The notes below the pieces were generated by a model. It was given only the letters and a program-made list of their open reading frames with translations. It made no database searches and was not told the DNA's origin. 64,000 bases of DNA from a virus. Of the stretch, positions 5,527 to 47,385 are shown one piece after another; the stretch's first letter is position 1, and each line of letters begins with the position of its first letter. Both the position numbers and the translations under genes were made by a program. The stretch is taken from IMG/VR virus record IMGVR_UViG_3300021964_000012, positions 188,001-252,000 of that record. The stretch is one strand, 5' to 3'.

Positions 5527-6513
5527 TTAGAAAGAAGCGGCAATTTTAAATTGTAAAACTGAACCATCATCATCTGTTGATGCTTCTCCACCGTTCTTGT
5601 ACTCATAGTCTGTGTAGTTTACATAACCAGTTAAACCTGGTGCAATAGCATGTTTAAGTTCAACCATGTTTTGCTTTAAGTTTTCTTTTTCAGAACCTGA
5701 TACATCTAATGCATCTTCTGATTCCATTGTTGAAACTGCAACAGTTGTAGTGTCATTAATTGCATAACTTGCACCACCGCCTACTGTTTCAATGTCCTCG
5801 TCTGCACCTTCTACAGTACTCATTGCACCAATAAGTGTTACTGCACCAAATGATACTTTAGCACCAATGCTTTGTGACTCATTGTCAATTGCACCTGATA
5901 CTTCTTGCATGCCTTTTGTGTAACCAATTTTGATGTTTTCATGAGTGTAACTTGCACCATATGCAGTTGAATCAGTTGCGCCTGTTGCGCCTGAATCCAT
6001 GTAACTTACACCAGCTTGTATTCCGCCGAAACTTGGAGAAATGTATGATACTTTGTCAAGATCTGCACCATATGTTTTTTCACCTGCATTTGATTGAATT
6101 GAAGCATTGGTGTATGTGCCAGTTACTTCTTCGTCCATGATGTCTTGCTCACCAATACCAAAGTTGTCTGTAACTGCATCGTTACCGCCTAGTATTAGTT
6201 TACCAGCAGCACCTGAAATATAAATTGATGATTCGTCAATGGTTGCATTTGTGTCTGCAACTGTTGCCATTTCAACAACCATACCATAGTTTAGGCCACT
6301 ATCAGTTTTGTTTGAGAAAGTAAATTTAATTTCATTATCTGTGTTGCCCATTGAATCACCTTTTTGTGAAGCAATTTGTGAATCAACATCTTTATAATAA
6401 AATTCGGAACTACCAGAAATAGTAAATTCTGGCTTATTAACTGTGGCTTCTTGTGCCAAAGCAGTTGTACTCAGCAGTGTAGCTATCACTGCCAACGGGG
6501 CTAGTTTTTTCAT
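5527..6513 (-). CDS. outer-membrane porin
   Basis: The 328-residue product has a signal peptide (MKKLAPLAVIATLLSTTALA) and a mature start typical of Gram-negative trimeric porins. Repeated amphipathic strands follow, including SGSSEFYYKD, KFTFSNKTDSGLNYGMVVEM, GKLILGG and FGGIQAGVSYMD. The C terminus is FKIAASF, ending in the phenylalanine needed for BAM recognition. No SLH domain is present, which argues against a cyanobacterial porin. Length and strand pattern match alphaproteobacterial porins, so it was probably taken from a host. It stands alone between a CTAAATA promoter with leader hairpin and a strong terminator. Possible roles are altering nutrient uptake or masking receptors against superinfection. 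Confidence 0.85.
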   Translation of the reverse strand: MKKLAPLAVIATLLSTTALAQEATVNKPEFTISGSSEFYYKDVDSQIASQKGDSMGNTDNEIKFTFSNKTDSGLNYGMVVEMATVADTNATIDESSIYISGAAGKLILGGNDAVTDNFGIGEQDIMDEEVTGTYTNASIQSNAGEKTYGADLDKVSYISPSFGGIQAGVSYMDSGATGATDSTAYGASYTHENIKIGYTKGMQEVSGAIDNESQSIGAKVSFGAVTLIGAMSTVEGADEDIETVGGGASYAINDTTTVAVSTMESEDALDVSGSEKENLKQNMVELKHAIAPGLTGYVNYTDYEYKNGGEASTDDDGSVLQFKIAASF

Positions 6514-38239: not shown

Positions 38240-39940
38240 ATGAAAACAGAAATAGAACAGATACAATTATTATTAGAACAATTTAGAAGACCAACTCCCG
38301 AAGGCGAAGAATATCAAAACAGACTAGCAGAAGAATTTGAAATTATACTTCAGCAACGTTTTACAGATTACTTTCTCAAAATAAGACTCATACTTGATCT
38401 CAACGAAGACATACCACACATGACCAGAGGCAGTGCTGGTAGCAGTTTGGTTTGCTATCTCATGGGCATAACTGATGTTGATCCAATTGAATGGAACATA
38501 CCACTAGCAAGATTTTTAAATCCATACAGAGATGACTTGCCTGATGTGGATATTGATATACCTCATCACAAACAAGAACTTGCAATGCAACGTGTGTTTG
38601 ACAAATGGCCAACACAGAGTGCTAGGATATCAAACTATGTGCTTTACAGAGAGAAGAGTGCAAAACGCGAAGCTGCCAAACGCCTTGGAGCAAAAGGCAG
38701 ACTGCCAAAAGATATAGACTACGCAAAACTAGGCGTTGACGAACAAGAAGCACGTCGTATTGAACGCAAACTCATGGGCAAAAAACGTTGTATCAGCAAA
38801 CACTGTGGTGGTGTGCTGGTTTTTGATCGTCCACTACCTAAAAGCCTGTTCCGTGATGACAATCTTATCTTGCTTGACAAAAACGAAGTAGAGGATTTGG
38901 AACATCTAAAAGTAGACATACTTGCAAACAGAGGATTATCACAGTTACTAGAAATAGATCCTCACACAAGACTGGATGCATATCCAAAACAGGATGAACG
39001 TGTTGCTGATTTGTTGTGTAGAGGTGATGTACTTGGTGTAACACAAGGTGAGTCGCCAACTATGAAGAGACTGTTTCGTGCATTGCAACCAACCGGAGTT
39101 GAGGACTGTGTGTTTGCCAGTGCATTAGTGCGTCCAGTTGCTATGGAAGGCAGACGCAAGGCCAGTTGGTTCCGTGACTGGAGTGAAAAAGGCATACAAA
39201 AGAATGCAATAGTATATGAAGATGATGCCATACATAAAATAATGAAATTGATTGGCATATCACCATACGAAGCAGATATGTATCGTCGTGCTTTTGCAAA
39301 AAAGAATGAAGAAAAGATGATGCAGTTTATGGCACGCTTAGGTGATCATCCAGACAAGCATGATATCTATGAACAAATGCAATCACTAAGTGGGTTTGGC
39401 TTGTGTAGAGCACACGCAGTTAATTTAGGCAGACTTATATGGGCATTAGCATATCACAAAGTATACAATCCAAAAGAGTTTTGGCGTGCTTGTTTAAAAC
39501 ACTGCCAAGGATCATATGCACGTTGGGTATATCGTAACGAAGCAAAACGTGCTGGTTGGGATCTGCGTGAACTAGGTTTTGACAACTGGATTACAGAAGA
39601 TCCAGTTGAGAGTTTCAAACAACATGGTGCATGGAATAGTCCTGGCTTTTTGCCAAACATGGGATTGCAAAATTTATTCTTAGACAAGTTTCAGTTTGCA
39701 GGTATAATTGCCGCCAGCAGAGTGTTTAAAAGTGATATAAAAAGTTATATACACTTCATCACACTAGGTGTTGGTGAAGGTCGCTATGTGGATCTTGTTG
39801 TTGACAAACCAGTGAAATACGGTAAAGGAACTGTAGTCTTAGGAGAAGGAGAACTACACAGCAGAGACAACAGCGAGTATCTCAAAGTAAAACGCAAATC
39901 AGTAAAAGTGATGTCAATTGACGACTATGTTCAGAGCTAA
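38240..39940 (+). CDS. family C (DnaE-like) DNA polymerase core without PHP domain
   Basis: The 566-residue protein matches bacterial Pol III alpha from the palm onwards. YFLKIRLILDL precedes MTRGSAGSSLVCYLMGITDVDP (compare GRGSGAGSLVAYALGITDLDP), then RFLNPYRDDLPDVDIDI with D102 and D104, KHCGGVLVF, and HLKVDILANRGL with D226. GDVLGVTQGESPTMKRL, EDCVFASALVRP, YEDDAIHKIM and LCRAHAVNLGRLIWALAYHK follow. All three catalytic aspartates are present. The N-terminal PHP domain is absent and the C terminus is short. It lies opposite to neighbouring replication genes and overlaps the radical SAM gene by four bases. Whether it replaces or assists a T4 gp43 outside the window is unknown. Confidence 0.88.
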   Translation: MKTEIEQIQLLLEQFRRPTPEGEEYQNRLAEEFEIILQQRFTDYFLKIRLILDLNEDIPHMTRGSAGSSLVCYLMGITDVDPIEWNIPLARFLNPYRDDLPDVDIDIPHHKQELAMQRVFDKWPTQSARISNYVLYREKSAKREAAKRLGAKGRLPKDIDYAKLGVDEQEARRIERKLMGKKRCISKHCGGVLVFDRPLPKSLFRDDNLILLDKNEVEDLEHLKVDILANRGLSQLLEIDPHTRLDAYPKQDERVADLLCRGDVLGVTQGESPTMKRLFRALQPTGVEDCVFASALVRPVAMEGRRKASWFRDWSEKGIQKNAIVYEDDAIHKIMKLIGISPYEADMYRRAFAKKNEEKMMQFMARLGDHPDKHDIYEQMQSLSGFGLCRAHAVNLGRLIWALAYHKVYNPKEFWRACLKHCQGSYARWVYRNEAKRAGWDLRELGFDNWITEDPVESFKQHGAWNSPGFLPNMGLQNLFLDKFQFAGIIAASRVFKSDIKSYIHFITLGVGEGRYVDLVVDKPVKYGKGTVVLGEGELHSRDNSEYLKVKRKSVKVMSIDDYVQS

Positions 39941-40944
39941 CAGGTACCACAGTTATCATCGCAAATGACTAACCGTCCATTTTCATAATCTTTAAGTATC
40001 CAACTTTGTTCCACTTTGCCAAACCATTCAATACATTGTTCCAAAGTGTAAACTAATGCATTATTTTTTTCAATCATTGGAATTAATTGACTGTTGGCAG
40101 CTTGATGATACTGCCCTTTCCCGTATGTCTTAGGGTAAAACCCAGTGTAACAACAAGGATACACATCTCCATTGGCAGAGATATAAATGCTTTTAAGTTT
40201 TTTTGTTTCACAGATTACACTGGCGCAAGGTTTTCTTCCTGGAATAATATCTTCTAATAAAATATCATCAGTTTTTTTACTGTCAAGAAGTTTTTCAAAA
40301 TTGGTTTCTCCTGAGTATGATCCTAATGTATGAGCCAGGTTACCTTTCTTGTCAAATACAGGAGCAGTGTTTCTTCCTTCGTCAACTATTTTAAATTTTG
40401 AAAATTCCAGTTGAATGCTCAGTTGTTTACATTCTTCGATTTGATGACGATTATGATCAAATTCTATAAACTGCCAAATTGCATTTCCTCCGTTTGAAAT
40501 AAAAGTTTTAGCATTTTTAATCACAGTTTTCCAAGAAGTATCTTGACGATATAAACTGTGGGTGTCTTCTAATCCATCAATTGCAAAATTAACCGTGGCA
40601 CTACTGCTGGCAAGGCTTTTCCAAAAATCTTCTTTTCTAGCTCCGCCGTTGGTGTTAATCGAAATATTCATTTTTGGATTATTATCTCTAAAGTATTTTA
40701 TAATATCTTGACCTTCGGGATTCATCACAATATCGCCAAAATTTCCATTAACACGAATTGATTTCAATTGTAGCAGAAATTTTTTTGAAAATATTTTTTT
40801 TGTTTGCTCTAATGTCAAATACGTTTCAGGATAACCTCCATTATAAGGATACCCCCAGAAGTTTCGAGGACACCAAGGACATCTCGCATTACACAAAGAT
40901 GCAATTTCTAAATGAACATCACGAATTTCATTGTAAGATATCAT
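39937..40944 (-). CDS. radical SAM/SPASM enzyme
   Basis: The 335-residue protein has CNARCPWC (C18, C22, C25), the CxxxCxxC site for the 4Fe-4S cluster that cleaves S-adenosylmethionine. NGNFGDIVMNPEG and SINTNGG follow, as in SPASM proteins. The C-terminal half has further cysteines (KPCASVICE, VYPCCYTG, CIEW, ICDDNCGTC) for auxiliary clusters. SPASM enzymes modify peptides or small molecules. No obvious precursor peptide is next to it. It overlaps gp41 by four bases (ATGA), so it belongs to the replication run. Related genes occur in marine myophages, with unknown substrates. Confidence 0.85.
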   Translation of the reverse strand: MISYNEIRDVHLEIASLCNARCPWCPRNFWGYPYNGGYPETYLTLEQTKKIFSKKFLLQLKSIRVNGNFGDIVMNPEGQDIIKYFRDNNPKMNISINTNGGARKEDFWKSLASSSATVNFAIDGLEDTHSLYRQDTSWKTVIKNAKTFISNGGNAIWQFIEFDHNRHQIEECKQLSIQLEFSKFKIVDEGRNTAPVFDKKGNLAHTLGSYSGETNFEKLLDSKKTDDILLEDIIPGRKPCASVICETKKLKSIYISANGDVYPCCYTGFYPKTYGKGQYHQAANSQLIPMIEKNNALVYTLEQCIEWFGKVEQSWILKDYENGRLVICDDNCGTC

Positions 40945-42344
40945 TTTTGTTTGATACCTGCTAACATCTGTTTAAGTTTTGTGCTTTGTACATCAGCAAC
41001 AATCTTACCTGGTTCGTCTGCCACAGTTGCATCGTTTACAGTGTCAGTTGTGAGTGTCTTGGCTTTTATTTGATCATAGATACTTGAACTCTGTTTCTTA
41101 AACTGTTGATATTCTTCATCATCTCCTAAGTCACGTATACGCAAACTTTCTATGTCAAACTCCAAGTCTACTTTCTGTCCAACACCTGAACTACTTCTAG
41201 TCTTCATAGCCTGTATCTGATATCTGCCACGTTCTCTCATTGCACGGCTTGTAAAGATACCAAACACATTGTCAGCAGTATTGATCTTACTGATACCACC
41301 TGATATATGCGAATGATCAAACTCTATTTCTTCAACTGCACTTCTATTCAACTGTGAAGCAGTTACAAACAATATGTTAAGTTCCCTTGCAAGGTTACGC
41401 AGTTCTTCAGATACATACTTGTCCTTAACAAACAGATCATTTGGCGATACTTTTGCACTTACTGGCATAAGCAAATCCAAATAGTCAACACACATAAAGT
41501 CTATTTCTTTTCCTTGTTTGATGCTTAGTTCTTTTACAAATGCTCTTATGTCGTTAACTGTGCTCTGTGCAGGCATGTATTTTATTTGAAGTTTTCCTGA
41601 CTTCTTGCCCATCATTTTAACTTTCATTTCAACAGTTTCAATGTCTTTGAACAACTGTTTACTAGGAGTGTTTGTTAACATACTGTCAATACGCATAGCT
41701 GTCAACCCTTCACTCAATTCGAGTGTAATGTATACTCCGCTGAGTCCTGCTTCCATCCAGTTCACTGCCAAGTTTTGCATGAACAAACTTTTACCTGATC
41801 CTGACCCGCCTGCAAATATCTGTAGTTCTCCTCTGTTAAACCCACCATACAATAATTTGTCTAAGTTTGCCCAACCTGTTGAATTCTGTCCGTTGTTGTC
41901 TTTCAGTGCCGCAAGTCTTGCACGAGGATCTTCAAAGTAATCTGTACCCAGATCCTTTGTTAAACTTATCTGTACTGCATCCTTGATTAGTTTCTCAACT
42001 GGTGAATACTCTCCCTTTTCTAACAGGTCTGCACTTTTAAGTATGGCACGTTCTAGTTCAGTACGTCTGGTAAATGCTTCAAATTCGTTCAAAAACCAAT
42101 CTGTATGTCCACTATTGAGATCTGGAATCTCCAATAGTTCAACGTTTGTCACTGCTTTTATCTGTGCTCTGTCAGGAAGTGTTTTATGTTCGTTTGCATG
42201 GTCATAGATAAACTTTGCAGTTTCACGCAAGTCTCTGTCAAAATTTTCTGTATTGAATATATTTTGTACTCTCAAAAAACTTTGTGCATCATGCATCATC
42301 ATTTCTAAAAATAACTTTTGTACATCATAGTTATAATCTGTCAT
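40941..42344 (-). CDS. replicative DNA helicase (T4 gp41/DnaB-like)
   Basis: The 467-residue protein has the DnaB-type RecA core: Walker A GGSGSGKS at 179-186, VYITLELSEGLTAMRID (motif 1a), FMCVDYLDLL (Walker B), TASQLNRSA (motif 3) and QAMKTRSSSGVGQKVDLEFD near the end. It unwinds DNA at the fork as a hexamer with the primase. It is directly downstream of gp61 with a four-base overlap, the classic T4 pairing in reversed local order. Confidence 0.93.
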   Translation of the reverse strand: MTDYNYDVQKLFLEMMMHDAQSFLRVQNIFNTENFDRDLRETAKFIYDHANEHKTLPDRAQIKAVTNVELLEIPDLNSGHTDWFLNEFEAFTRRTELERAILKSADLLEKGEYSPVEKLIKDAVQISLTKDLGTDYFEDPRARLAALKDNNGQNSTGWANLDKLLYGGFNRGELQIFAGGSGSGKSLFMQNLAVNWMEAGLSGVYITLELSEGLTAMRIDSMLTNTPSKQLFKDIETVEMKVKMMGKKSGKLQIKYMPAQSTVNDIRAFVKELSIKQGKEIDFMCVDYLDLLMPVSAKVSPNDLFVKDKYVSEELRNLARELNILFVTASQLNRSAVEEIEFDHSHISGGISKINTADNVFGIFTSRAMRERGRYQIQAMKTRSSSGVGQKVDLEFDIESLRIRDLGDDEEYQQFKKQSSSIYDQIKAKTLTTDTVNDATVADEPGKIVADVQSTKLKQMLAGIKQK

Positions 42345-43312
42345 ACTATCCTCGCTAGGCGTTTACGTGCCATTTCAATTTTTATCTTACTACGTTCTGC
42401 ATGTTGATGAATTTGATGTAGTGTTTCGGCTACACCAAAACGCACCACTGCATCATTTACATCTTTTACATCTTTGGGCCATTCGGGTATACTAACTTCA
42501 AACTTGTGTTCTACTGCGGCATCAATTATACTTAATCCTGCACGGTCCTGATCTGGTACTACTATAATTCTACGTTGTAACTGCTTCAACAACTGTGCTT
42601 GATCTTTGCTAATGGTCTCATGCATACATGCTAATCCGGATATACTTAGTGCATCAAATATACCCTCAACAACTATTGCACTAGTCCAGTCAGACTTTTG
42701 TAAATCGTAACCAAACACATACCCAGGTTGTTGATTGTTTATAAACTTTGGTGTACGATTATCCAAGTAACGTGATGTATATCCTACTATCCTGTTTTTG
42801 TAAGTGTATGGTATAACAATCCTGTCTCTTGGTCCACGTTTTTTATCTACTAAAAATGGATAACCAAACACTATACCACGATTACGCAGGTATTCAACAT
42901 AATGAAAGTGACCACGATTGTTCTCATCTATTCGTTCAACACCTGTGGGTATTTCTTGTTCTTCAAAGTCTATTTGTTTTTGTTTAATGGTATTGCGTTC
43001 AGCAGTTAAATCTAATAAATTTTTACGTTTCAAACTTTCTAAGTTGAGCCTTTCAATATCAGTTGGATCAACACCTAGCCATTCTAATAGTTTACGTGTT
43101 TTGTAACCAACGTTGCGTCCAGCAACAAAACTTGCTGTAAAACCACAGTTAAAGCAATGATAACTCCAATCGTCATCCTGTTGTTTGATTCCACCACGAA
43201 GACGCTTGTCTTTTGATTCACCTTGATGAACACAACAAGGTGCATTGAAACTTACCCATCCAGAACTGGTATGTTTTCGCTTTTGCGGAATGTAACTCAA
43301 TAGATCGATCAT
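42341..43312 (-). CDS. DNA primase (T4 gp61-like)
   Basis: The 323-residue protein has a CHC2-like zinc-binding domain (C26/C27, H29, C53, C56: CCVHQ and HCFNCGF). A TOPRIM domain follows with VVEGIFDAL (catalytic Glu, about 214-222) and VVPDQDRAG (DxD, about 252-260). It makes RNA primers and partners the adjacent gp41 helicase. There is no clear ribosome site before the ATG. A weak TTGCAT-17-TACTAT promoter may lie upstream. Confidence 0.92.
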   Translation of the reverse strand: MIDLLSYIPQKRKHTSSGWVSFNAPCCVHQGESKDKRLRGGIKQQDDDWSYHCFNCGFTASFVAGRNVGYKTRKLLEWLGVDPTDIERLNLESLKRKNLLDLTAERNTIKQKQIDFEEQEIPTGVERIDENNRGHFHYVEYLRNRGIVFGYPFLVDKKRGPRDRIVIPYTYKNRIVGYTSRYLDNRTPKFINNQQPGYVFGYDLQKSDWTSAIVVEGIFDALSISGLACMHETISKDQAQLLKQLQRRIIVVPDQDRAGLSIIDAAVEHKFEVSIPEWPKDVKDVNDAVVRFGVAETLHQIHQHAERSKIKIEMARKRLARIV

Positions 43313-44370: not shown

Positions 44371-44378
44371 TATTTATG
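44371..44378 (-). promoter_or_regulatory. late promoter CATAAATA
   Basis: An NATAAATA element on the minus strand that overlaps the start codon of the divergent plus-strand gene and serves the gene starting at 44349. Confidence 0.5.
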
Positions 44379-44753
44379 GGCGTAGAGCTGTTCGAAAAGA
44401 TTGCAGGACGATATCCGTTTATCACTTTCTGTACCTATGCAGGTAATGAATATGTTGGTGTAATCCAAAACCGCGATGATCAAATCACTACTATCTATGA
44501 CTTTGGAAGTATCGTCGAAGATGATATCAAACGTGATTTTCTAGAACTAGCCAATCAATGGTGGTGGGAATCTAATCGCAGTATACCAATTAACATTTTT
44601 TTAAAACAAGATTGGGAAAAGTTTAAACCTTATTTAAAAACTTTCATAAACAAAGATCTACAAATTTTACTAGGGCCAAGCACAAGCCTAGCAGAACTTA
44701 GTCGTAAAAAAATAAAACGAAGAAGTATTACACTGGTTCGCAAAGTAGATTAA
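44376..44753 (+). CDS. conserved-looking phage protein
   Basis: The 125-residue product is soluble, with a beta-rich first half (GRYPFITFCTYAGNEYVGVI; TTIYDFGSI) and a helical C-terminal half with a basic end. No family motif is recognised. The plus-strand TATAAATA upstream indicates late expression. The last 26 bases overlap the mini DnaE-like gene tail to tail. The Sm-like first half could suggest RNA binding, but this is speculative. Confidence 0.55.
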   Translation: MGVELFEKIAGRYPFITFCTYAGNEYVGVIQNRDDQITTIYDFGSIVEDDIKRDFLELANQWWWESNRSIPINIFLKQDWEKFKPYLKTFINKDLQILLGPSTSLAELSRKKIKRRSITLVRKVD

Positions 44754-45288
44754 TGTGTAGTGCAACAAGACGTGCATAACTGATTGCATGTGATTTTTTA
44801 AATACAAAACCAGCACTATTATCTCCATCCCACACAGTAGCAAATACATCAGTCCAACTCTTACGTTGTAGGTGAGATTTACCTGGACGTATTATACTGA
44901 TAAATGCTGCCATGCGTTGTATGTTGTCTGGTTGCATTGCAACTATTAGGTCATGATAGTTCCCAATATGCACTATCTGTTCGCAAAAATCTTTGTCTTG
45001 TAAACGTGTCCAGTCTGTTTCTTTTGCCAACATAGCATCATAGTGTGCTTGGTCACGTATCAGTGTGTACACACTTTGATTAAGTAAGTCTAATTTAAAA
45101 TACCCACGTTGTTCTGCATACTCATAGTCTATGCTTGCACAACTGTTTATTGCATCAAATGGTACAGGAGTAACATAAACACCACTATTGTGCTTTTTTC
45201 CTTCTGCGTTCATTCTTGCCGGTGTACATTGAATCAAATCAATTATCTGTTGCCTATCAGCAAAATCTATGTCAACATCAGCACTCAT
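44728..45288 (-). CDS. miniature DnaE-like protein
   Basis: The 186-residue protein strings together hallmark motifs of family C polymerases with most of the linking sequence deleted. It has ADVDIDFADR at 3-12 (catalytic D4 and D6), HNSGVYV at 33-39 (compare HACGVVI), FKLDLL at 64-69 (third catalytic Asp, D67), PDNIQRMAAFISIIRPGK (compare the EDLIALVALYRPGP helix) and FVFKKSHAISYARLVAL (compare FNKSHSAAYALVSY). It lacks the GRGSAAGSL nucleotide-binding segment. It may be an inactive relic, an accessory subunit or a regulator. It overlaps the next gene's end by four bases. Confidence 0.7.
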   Translation of the reverse strand: MSADVDIDFADRQQIIDLIQCTPARMNAEGKKHNSGVYVTPVPFDAINSCASIDYEYAEQRGYFKLDLLNQSVYTLIRDQAHYDAMLAKETDWTRLQDKDFCEQIVHIGNYHDLIVAMQPDNIQRMAAFISIIRPGKSHLQRKSWTDVFATVWDGDNSAGFVFKKSHAISYARLVALHINLLCEPV

Positions 45289-45536
45289 TTACTAATGTAG
45301 TGTCCTATGTTAGCAAATTCAGCAATCGCAAATACTATTGCAGCCATAACTAAATCACCAGTTAACAATGCATAGCATCCGCCAATTCTTATCGCACTTT
45401 TTATCAGCAACATATAGAATTGTGGATCTTTGGATTTGTTTACTTTTTCCATTTGTTGGATTTTTGGTCTAGTCAATCCCATTTTCTTCTCCTCTGCAGG
45501 TAATGTAAAACTTATTTTTTCTGTGTAAAACGGCAT
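45285..45536 (-). CDS. small membrane protein
   Basis: ATG 45536 (83 residues, MPFYTEKISFTLPAEEKKMG) lies one base after the stop of the zinc-finger gene, so I prefer it to the longer frame. The C-terminal half is hydrophobic (about 50-80, SAIRIGGCYALLTGDLVMAA and VFAIAEFANIGHYISK) and may form two short membrane helices. The function is unknown. Confidence 0.55.
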   Translation of the reverse strand: MPFYTEKISFTLPAEEKKMGLTRPKIQQMEKVNKSKDPQFYMLLIKSAIRIGGCYALLTGDLVMAAIVFAIAEFANIGHYISK

Positions 45537-45537
45537 G

Positions 45538-46239
45538 CTACCATCCTGCCTGTTTAAGTATTTCTTCACAATATGCCTGATCTGCTGGATAGTCACGAAA
45601 CTTCTTTTGCCAAAAGTCTGGATCAATCCAAGGCCATACAATTTTTGTTTGATCAGGATTCATATCTGCTAGATATCGTTGTCCTGACTCACAGTTAAAC
45701 ACCAACCAAGGTGATATGCGTCCAGTACTTATTGCAAACGCAACTGCATTATCATTTCCATAACGCAAAAAGTCCTGTGCAGGATGTCCAGTACGTTCAC
45801 TCCACTTTATACTATATTCAATGCCACGTTCAAGTGCATCTGTTAGTGCTTCCCGTCTAATATATTCATGAAGGTATTCATCATATACTGCTTCTTTGCA
45901 CCAGTGATCTAGTTTTTTGTTTTGTTTGATCACCCATTCAACAAACTTGGGTACATTGATAGCATTTATACCAACACAATGTCTACCAAATTTTACAAAT
46001 GCTTTGTAGTATGGTGATGTTGCAAAATCTGCATAGCTTTTTAGTTTTGCACTGCCCTGTGTCATGGTGTAAAACTTCAAATAACTTTGCAAACCAATTT
46101 GCACACCAACTTCTTTTTCTTCTTGGAATCTGCGTTTTTGTTCACAGAGATGTACTGCTAGTGTGCTTTCTTTTCTAAACTCACGTTCGCAGTACTTGCA
46201 TCGATAGGTTTCACTTTTTGTCTGCGACTCCGCTGTCAC
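45538..46239 (-). CDS. C2H2 zinc-finger protein
   Basis: The 233-residue product (GTG start overlapping the previous TGA) has a single C2H2-like finger near the N terminus (CKYCEREFRKESTLAVHLCEQ, residues about 14-34; ligands C14, C17, H30 and C33 or a later residue). A helical domain with many aromatic residues follows. DNA or protein binding in replication or transcription is likely from the finger and position. It is common in marine T4-like replication clusters as far as I recall. Confidence 0.65.
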   Translation of the reverse strand: MTAESQTKSETYRCKYCEREFRKESTLAVHLCEQKRRFQEEKEVGVQIGLQSYLKFYTMTQGSAKLKSYADFATSPYYKAFVKFGRHCVGINAINVPKFVEWVIKQNKKLDHWCKEAVYDEYLHEYIRREALTDALERGIEYSIKWSERTGHPAQDFLRYGNDNAVAFAISTGRISPWLVFNCESGQRYLADMNPDQTKIVWPWIDPDFWQKKFRDYPADQAYCEEILKQAGW

Positions 46240-46884: not shown

Positions 46885-47385
46885 TCACCATGCTTTGTTA
46901 TAGTCTACAATTTCGCAGTTACGACTGATATCTTTTACAAAATAAACACATCTTGGATCATTTTTGTTTTCAACCGGTACTGCCAACATCTGTCCATTTT
47001 TAAGTTTAGGAACATACCAAGTTACGTCTTGATAAACATCAATTATTTCTATATCCAGATAGGTTGGTGTAAAACTTGTGTGTGGATTGAATTGGAAAGT
47101 TTTAAAACCTCTATCATTGATACTAGTTAAAGGTAACATCTCAAGATCACCAACTTCTGGTTCACCAATCAGTACCTGCCAATCAATTGGCATTTTCATC
47201 TGTGTTTCACCAATACGCAATACCAATGCTGGCGAGTTAAATGTTTCTAAAAATATTAATGGAATATAGATGTGATCTGGATTGGTTGGATCACTGTTGT
47301 CAAAAATAGCAAAACGTAAGTCATCTATCTCTTCAGGCAATGTATCTAATTCAAACACAGTATTTTCTAGTGTTAGTATTCTCAT
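46885..47385 (-). CDS. conserved-looking protein downstream of the cassette site
   Basis: The 166-residue product (MRILTLENTVFELDTLPEEI) is beta-rich, with segments like YIPLIFLETFNSPALVLRIG. No motif is recognised. Its first 33 bases around the start are duplicated, with two differences, at 48117-48149. This marks it as the fixed downstream flank of a cassette site that lies between it and uvsW. The ATG overlaps the end of the SGNH gene by four bases. Confidence 0.6.
   Translation of the reverse strand: MRILTLENTVFELDTLPEEIDDLRFAIFDNSDPTNPDHIYIPLIFLETFNSPALVLRIGETQMKMPIDWQVLIGEPEVGDLEMLPLTSINDRGFKTFQFNPHTSFTPTYLDIEIIDVYQDVTWYVPKLKNGQMLAVPVENKNDPRCVYFVKDISRNCEIVDYNKAW

Follow-up and report, generated by a model that had tools for sequence, protein, structure and literature searches.

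The 64,000-nucleotide stretch of DNA analyzed here (the window) covers positions 188,001 to 252,000 of the IMG/VR virus record IMGVR_UViG_3300021964_000012. On its minus strand, an open reading frame (ORF) at 44728 to 45288 runs from ATG to TAA and encodes a 186-amino-acid (aa) protein. The initial annotation, made from the sequence alone, described this protein as a miniature DnaE that carries the motifs of family C DNA polymerases in their proper order, and we find that order as described: D4-x-D6-x-D8, H33-N-S-G36-V, K65-L-D67-L-L, R134-P-G-K, and F163-K-K-S-H167-A-I-S-Y171. We propose that the protein is the C-terminal half (C half) of a split polymerase, and its features are as follows.

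44728..45288, minus strand: proposed C half of a split minimal Pol III alpha, 186 aa, with the second palm segment, which bears the catalytic aspartates, and a reduced fingers region
45265..45279, minus strand: DxDxD motif (D4, D6, D8), aligned to E. coli DnaE D401, D403, and D405; invariant in 50 relatives
45181..45192, minus strand: H33-x-x-G36 motif, matched by hhalign to E. coli H511..G514; invariant
45088..45096, minus strand: K65-x-D67 motif with the third catalytic aspartate, matched by hhalign to E. coli K553 and D555; invariant
44878..44889, minus strand: R134-P-G-K137 motif, aligned to the RPG of DnaE; R134, P135, and K137 invariant
44788..44799, minus strand: K164-K-S-H167 motif, corresponding to E. 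coli NKSH 757-760; K164 and H167 invariant

In total, 25 positions of the C half are invariant across the 50 relatives, including D4, D6, H33, K65, D67, RP, K137, K164, and H167. The idea that almost all of the sequence between the motifs has been removed holds mainly for the thumb. The spacing from D6 to H33 is 27 residues, compared with 108 in E. coli DnaE (D403 to H511) and 84 in a 566-aa DnaE homologue encoded elsewhere in the window (D104 to H188), and there is therefore no room for a thumb, which in E. coli DnaE we take to be residues 433 to 510. The GVFQxE segment of the fingers is also lost, and the fingers profile PF17657 gave marginal matches to 5 of 45 C halves. A profile search of 20 records found no PHP domain in any of them. 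The GRGSAAGS loop, reported as missing by the initial annotation, is indeed absent from the sequence of the 186-aa protein; a GRGS loop, which binds deoxynucleoside triphosphates (dNTPs), lies on a second protein.

That protein was found by searching the virus's own 328-kb record (G000) with PF07733, which matched the 566-aa protein and, over a short segment, positions 141689 to 141904. The short match falls in a 157-aa ORF on the minus strand (G000:C1:141683-142156), outside the window and about 91 kb from the C-half gene. The encoded protein (the N half) is a member of PHROG_11127 (“DNA polymerase”; E=1.2e-39), contains GRGSSVASYV, and terminates in EFLR (C terminus, GVGRGSSVASYVLYLLGVHKIDSMYYDLDPGEFLR); every one of 50 N halves retains GxGRGS. 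The two proteins are exactly complementary. The N half stops at EFLR and the C half starts with MSADVDIDF, which puts the junction between residues 393 and ∼399 of E. coli DnaE, and the N-half profile ends at residues 392 to 393, eight residues short of D401. A concatenated N+C profile spans the junction on E. coli DnaE (322 to 423) with 43.4 bits, compared with 29.3 bits for the reversed C+N profile and at most 2.1 bits for composition-preserving shuffles. The GRGS piece missing from the C half is the 157-aa N half, and the predicted metal-binding aspartates, the template-side region, and GRGS are kept across the split pair. In the reading that we consider likely, a minimal Pol III alpha devoid of thumb and PHP domain is split in two, and the 186-aa protein is its C-terminal half, which assembles with the N half into a two-chain polymerase.

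Homology of the C half to DnaE is supported from several directions. It is a full-length member of PHROG_11778 (“DNA polymerase”; E=1.2e-52), and a profile of C halves matched E. coli DnaE with 14.3 bits, against a maximum of 3.7 in 500 shuffles. Sequence matches in the PDB were to Pol III alpha only and are collinear with it, at E. coli residues 403 to 424, 614 to 642, and 740 to 767. Searches of Pfam and NCBIfam returned no match to the C half, and single-sequence hhalign of the C half alone against DnaE gave a low probability (27%); because of the latter, the DnaE assignment rests on PHROG membership, fold, collinearity, and the partner protein. AlphaFold models built from alignments of IMG/VR loci and the window's genome (45 rows for the C half, 43 for the N half) had a predicted local distance difference test (pLDDT) score of 90 and a predicted template modeling (pTM) score of 0.79 for the C half, and scores of 83 and 0.66 for the N half. 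Foldseek searches of the PDB gave only Pol III alpha or PolC structures among the top 12 hits for the C half (probability, 0.44 to 1.00) and among the top 15 for the N half; no credible match had an unrelated fold. The model places D4 and D6 in a strand at residues 4 to 9 and D67 in a strand at 65 to 70, so that the C half is predicted to contain a Pol-beta-like palm with three catalytic aspartates.

The family is large. In GenBank, 91 phage records match the C half, with coverage of 80% or more of its length in 90, and the roughly 90 full-length relatives (28 to 43% identity) come from records that are nearly all 280 to 490 kb in size, with a few partial. They include the Rak2/121Q/GAP32/CBB-like phages, PA5oct/Paride, Atu_ph07, Phosso, SCTP-2, and RAS14. 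IMG/VR holds at least 576 confirmed relatives. Among 84,980 species genomes we found only 9 C-half loci, all in metagenome-assembled or uncultured bins that may contain phage contigs. In Atu_ph07 (L007:5998-6561), the C half is annotated to begin at locus position 6067, which excludes the catalytic DxD; the frame stays open upstream, in frame, to codons for PDIDID.

Co-occurrence of the halves was assessed in 24 large records, most of which were chosen because they carry one half. The C half is present in 19 records, and all 19 also encode the N half. Four records (130 to 262 kb) carry the N half without the C half and are probably fragments. In annotated phages, the N-half gene lies near genes for a clamp-loader subunit, a GroES-like protein, or both, and in every record it is tens of kilobases or more from the C-half gene. 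Of the 19 C-half records, 18 also encode a family B polymerase (PolB; PF00136), the window's genome among them; the exception is a 209-kb record.

G000:C1:104361-107072: PolB, 903 aa, with exonuclease and polymerase motifs intact

We rejected a DnaQ-type exonuclease (PF00929) as an obligatory proofreading partner of the split polymerase, as none was detected in G000 or any metagenomic relative; one is present in five of seven cultured split-polymerase phages tested (not in Phosso or SCTP-2) and also in LR756508, a record of an uncultured phage. Separately, the phage records OR847176, OR846665, and OR844993 (L308, L309, and L314; unverified) appear to contain bacterial DnaE genes, probably as host contamination.

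Both halves are under strong purifying selection. Compared with close relatives by the Nei-Gojobori method, the ratio of nonsynonymous to synonymous substitution rates (dN/dS) is 0.03 to 0.13 for the C half and 0.05 to 0.10 for the N half (0.07 for the 566-aa gene). The C half is intact in all 80 of the best 80 IMG/VR loci, and its length is similar in all lineages. The initial annotation had raised the possibilities of a relic and of an inhibitor, and both are disfavored because the catalytic residues are invariant and dN/dS is near 0.1. That the protein is a relic or degenerating fragment, an idea suggested by short length only, is refuted by these data, and we give it practically no credence. 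Its relationship to the host enzyme, of which it is a truncated relative, would fit a dominant-negative mimic that inhibits host Pol III alpha; this we consider highly improbable. A mimic would need no metal ligands, yet the catalytic aspartates are invariant, and the complementary half is always present (19/19). The protein is also common to phages of very different hosts, and in a family C tree built from 269 core columns the branch leading to the split clade is very long (1.9), which puts it at a great distance from any host DnaE; the clade attaches weakly (66) to that of the 566-aa type.

If the two-chain polymerase assembles as we propose, the N half would supply the first part of the Pol-beta-like palm and the dNTP-binding GRGS loop, and the remainder of the palm, together with the metal-binding aspartates and the shortened fingers region, would come from the C half. 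The separately made chains would associate non-covalently at the EFLR/SADVDID junction, forming one active site in about 343 aa. We infer that the product would be a polymerase of low processivity that works beside the family B replicase, possibly in gap filling, primer extension, repair, or recombination-coupled synthesis.

Several points weigh against this proposal. With the thumb and the GVFQxE segment lost, a grip on the primer-template is hard to account for. The Foldseek template modeling (TM) scores of the C half are modest (0.34 to 0.51), as expected because the query is a fragment. Co-occurrence of the halves partly reflects shared ancestry, because the records were picked via one half and the phages are related, and the distant positions of the two genes give no operon support. 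The same loss of thumb room and of GVFQxE could instead mean that the halves assemble into a non-polymerizing nucleotidyltransferase or DNA-binding factor (for example, a terminal transferase, a ligase-like enzyme, or a replisome regulator) that reuses the DnaE metal site, and a family B replicase already encoded in the genome and the lack of a PHP match in the genomes examined are compatible with such a role. We regard this as unlikely, given that RPG, KSHA, and GRGS, which represent the template and dNTP side, are kept beside the metal site.

A further DnaE gene lies in the window.

38240..39940, plus strand: single-chain PHP-less DnaE, 566 aa, with palm, thumb, fingers, and a C-terminal extension; catalytic residues kept

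The initial annotation paired this protein with the 186-aa protein, as a large/small pair in which the smaller would be an accessory subunit or regulator. The 566-aa protein is a genuine DnaE homologue (PF07733, E=3e-41), and the expectation of a multi-protein arrangement stood, with the N half and not the 566-aa protein as the complementary piece. The two genes are 5 kb apart, and in a few relatives they share contigs. Nonetheless, a gene of the 566-aa type occurs in only 3 of the 19 records with a C half (the window's genome, G006, and G013), leaving 16 of the other 18 without one, and LR756508 encodes a 575-aa single-chain form and PolB but neither split half. The 566-aa protein has a complete palm of its own, which leaves nothing for the small protein to supply, and it hardly aligns directly with the C half. 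On this distribution and the full palm, we rejected the pairing and consider it very improbable. The window's genome is predicted to encode three polymerases: PolB, the split pair, and the 566-aa DnaE. The same holds for 2 of the 18 other C-half records (G006 and G013).

Split polymerases of this kind are already known, and the window's genome adds one member. The initial annotation knew of no role for so short a form, but both pieces had been identified by Iyer et al. (2021; PMC7824862), who assigned them to a split minimal Pol III alpha found in group 2.2 jumbo phages, Atu_ph07 among them. These authors proposed that the pieces reconstitute an enzyme, which might act in cooperation with PolB, viewed the split enzyme as a model of an ancestral state, and stated that phages with the split version have no other Pol III domains; the window's genome, G006, and G013, which also encode the 566-aa type of single-chain DnaE, are exceptions to that generalization. 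The N half CBB_328 had been noted in 2017 as a truncated Pol III alpha (PMC5259590), and Atu_ph07 gp316 as a Pol III alpha subunit (PMC6102473). The open-access literature searched yielded no biochemical test of the split polymerase. PHROGs has full-length membership for each half, in PHROG_11778 and PHROG_11127, and leaves the two unlinked. What is new here is the absence of the thumb, the conserved cassette described below, coexistence with the 566-aa DnaE, and the recurring split site.

Compared with E. coli DnaE and Taq Pol III alpha, the split pair has the same order of GRGS loop, DxD, HxxGV, KxDxL, RPG, and KSHA, and the same fold by Foldseek. It differs from bacterial DnaE in having about 343 aa in two chains rather than 1160 in one, and in being without the PHP domain, thumb, GVFQxE segment, HhH, OB, and tau-binding parts. 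The DnaE of Cellulophaga phage phiST (L315:1846-5446) is broken at the same junction, with PF07733 positions 4 to 98 matched in gp044 and 100 to 260 in gp045. Unlike the jumbo-phage pair, the phiST genes are adjacent, and the protein retains the PHP domain and the full thumb, fingers, and HhH; the break carries extra ends, a tail of ∼56 aa on gp044 and a head of ∼18 aa on gp045. In the tree, phiST DnaE groups with bacterial DnaE and not with the jumbo-phage clade (grouping support, 66). The phiST split is likely independent of the jumbo-phage split, and the shared junction suggests a recurrent fission point. In cyanobacteria, DnaE is encoded by two separate genes with a trans-splicing split intein. 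The jumbo-phage break point differs from the cyanobacterial one, and no intein sequence is left in the halves. We rejected an intein origin of the split: no intein was detected in the phiST tail or head, and the jumbo-phage junction ends are clean, with nothing intein-like.

The C-half gene is part of a conserved cassette. In annotated phages it lies amid replication genes (UvsW helicase, primase, and DnaB), as it does in the window, where its surroundings are as follows.

44376..44753, plus strand: 125-aa ORF of phrog_11637, convergent with the C-half gene and sharing 26 nucleotides with its 3' end
45285..45641, minus strand: small ORF directly upstream of the C half, overlapping its start codon by 4 nucleotides (ATGA), with a hydrophobic stretch
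45538..46239, minus strand: phrog_11058 protein, 233 aa, with a weak C2H2 zinc-finger match; conserved neighbor upstream of the C half
46885..47385, minus strand: phrog_11279 protein, 166 aa; conserved neighbor of the C half
40941..43312, minus strand: DnaB-like replicative helicase (40941-42344) and DnaG-like primase (42341-43312); conserved neighbors of the C half

Between the 566-aa DnaE and DnaB genes lies a gene for a radical SAM/SPASM protein (39937-40944, minus strand). The small ORF at 45285 to 45641 has no family match, and its true start is probably downstream of the listed TTG. In 17 of the 19 records from distant phages, a convergent ORF of phrog_11637 (117 to 134 aa) shares 4 to 30 nucleotides with the 3' end of the C-half gene, and this kept overlap suggests linked regulation or function. 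Paride, Phosso, and other phages also have the phrog_11058 gene upstream of the C half, and its product is a candidate DNA-binding accessory protein. Each of phrog_11637, phrog_11058, and phrog_11279 occurs in 85 to 87 GenBank records with an organism makeup near that of the C half; shared ancestry can explain this distribution.

It is possible, if somewhat short of probable, that this lineage runs three polymerases of two unrelated folds at once. These would be PolB as the family B replicase, the two-chain family C core that lacks a thumb, and the single-chain family C enzyme that lacks a PHP domain. With the dNTP-binding half on one protein and the metal-binding half on another, the two-chain core would come close to the smallest functional form of a family C polymerase, and the cassette neighbors phrog_11058 (the zinc-finger protein) and phrog_11637 might hold it on DNA.

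Genomes with three polymerases raise the question of how the labor of replication is divided. The family is large and has members in phages cultured on laboratory hosts (121Q and Paride), which opens the 2021 prediction to direct testing. Should the pair prove active, it would mean that catalysis requires only a small part of a bacterial replicase and that two proteins made separately can share its active site, and the pair would constitute a natural two-piece polymerase that could be switched by supplying one half.
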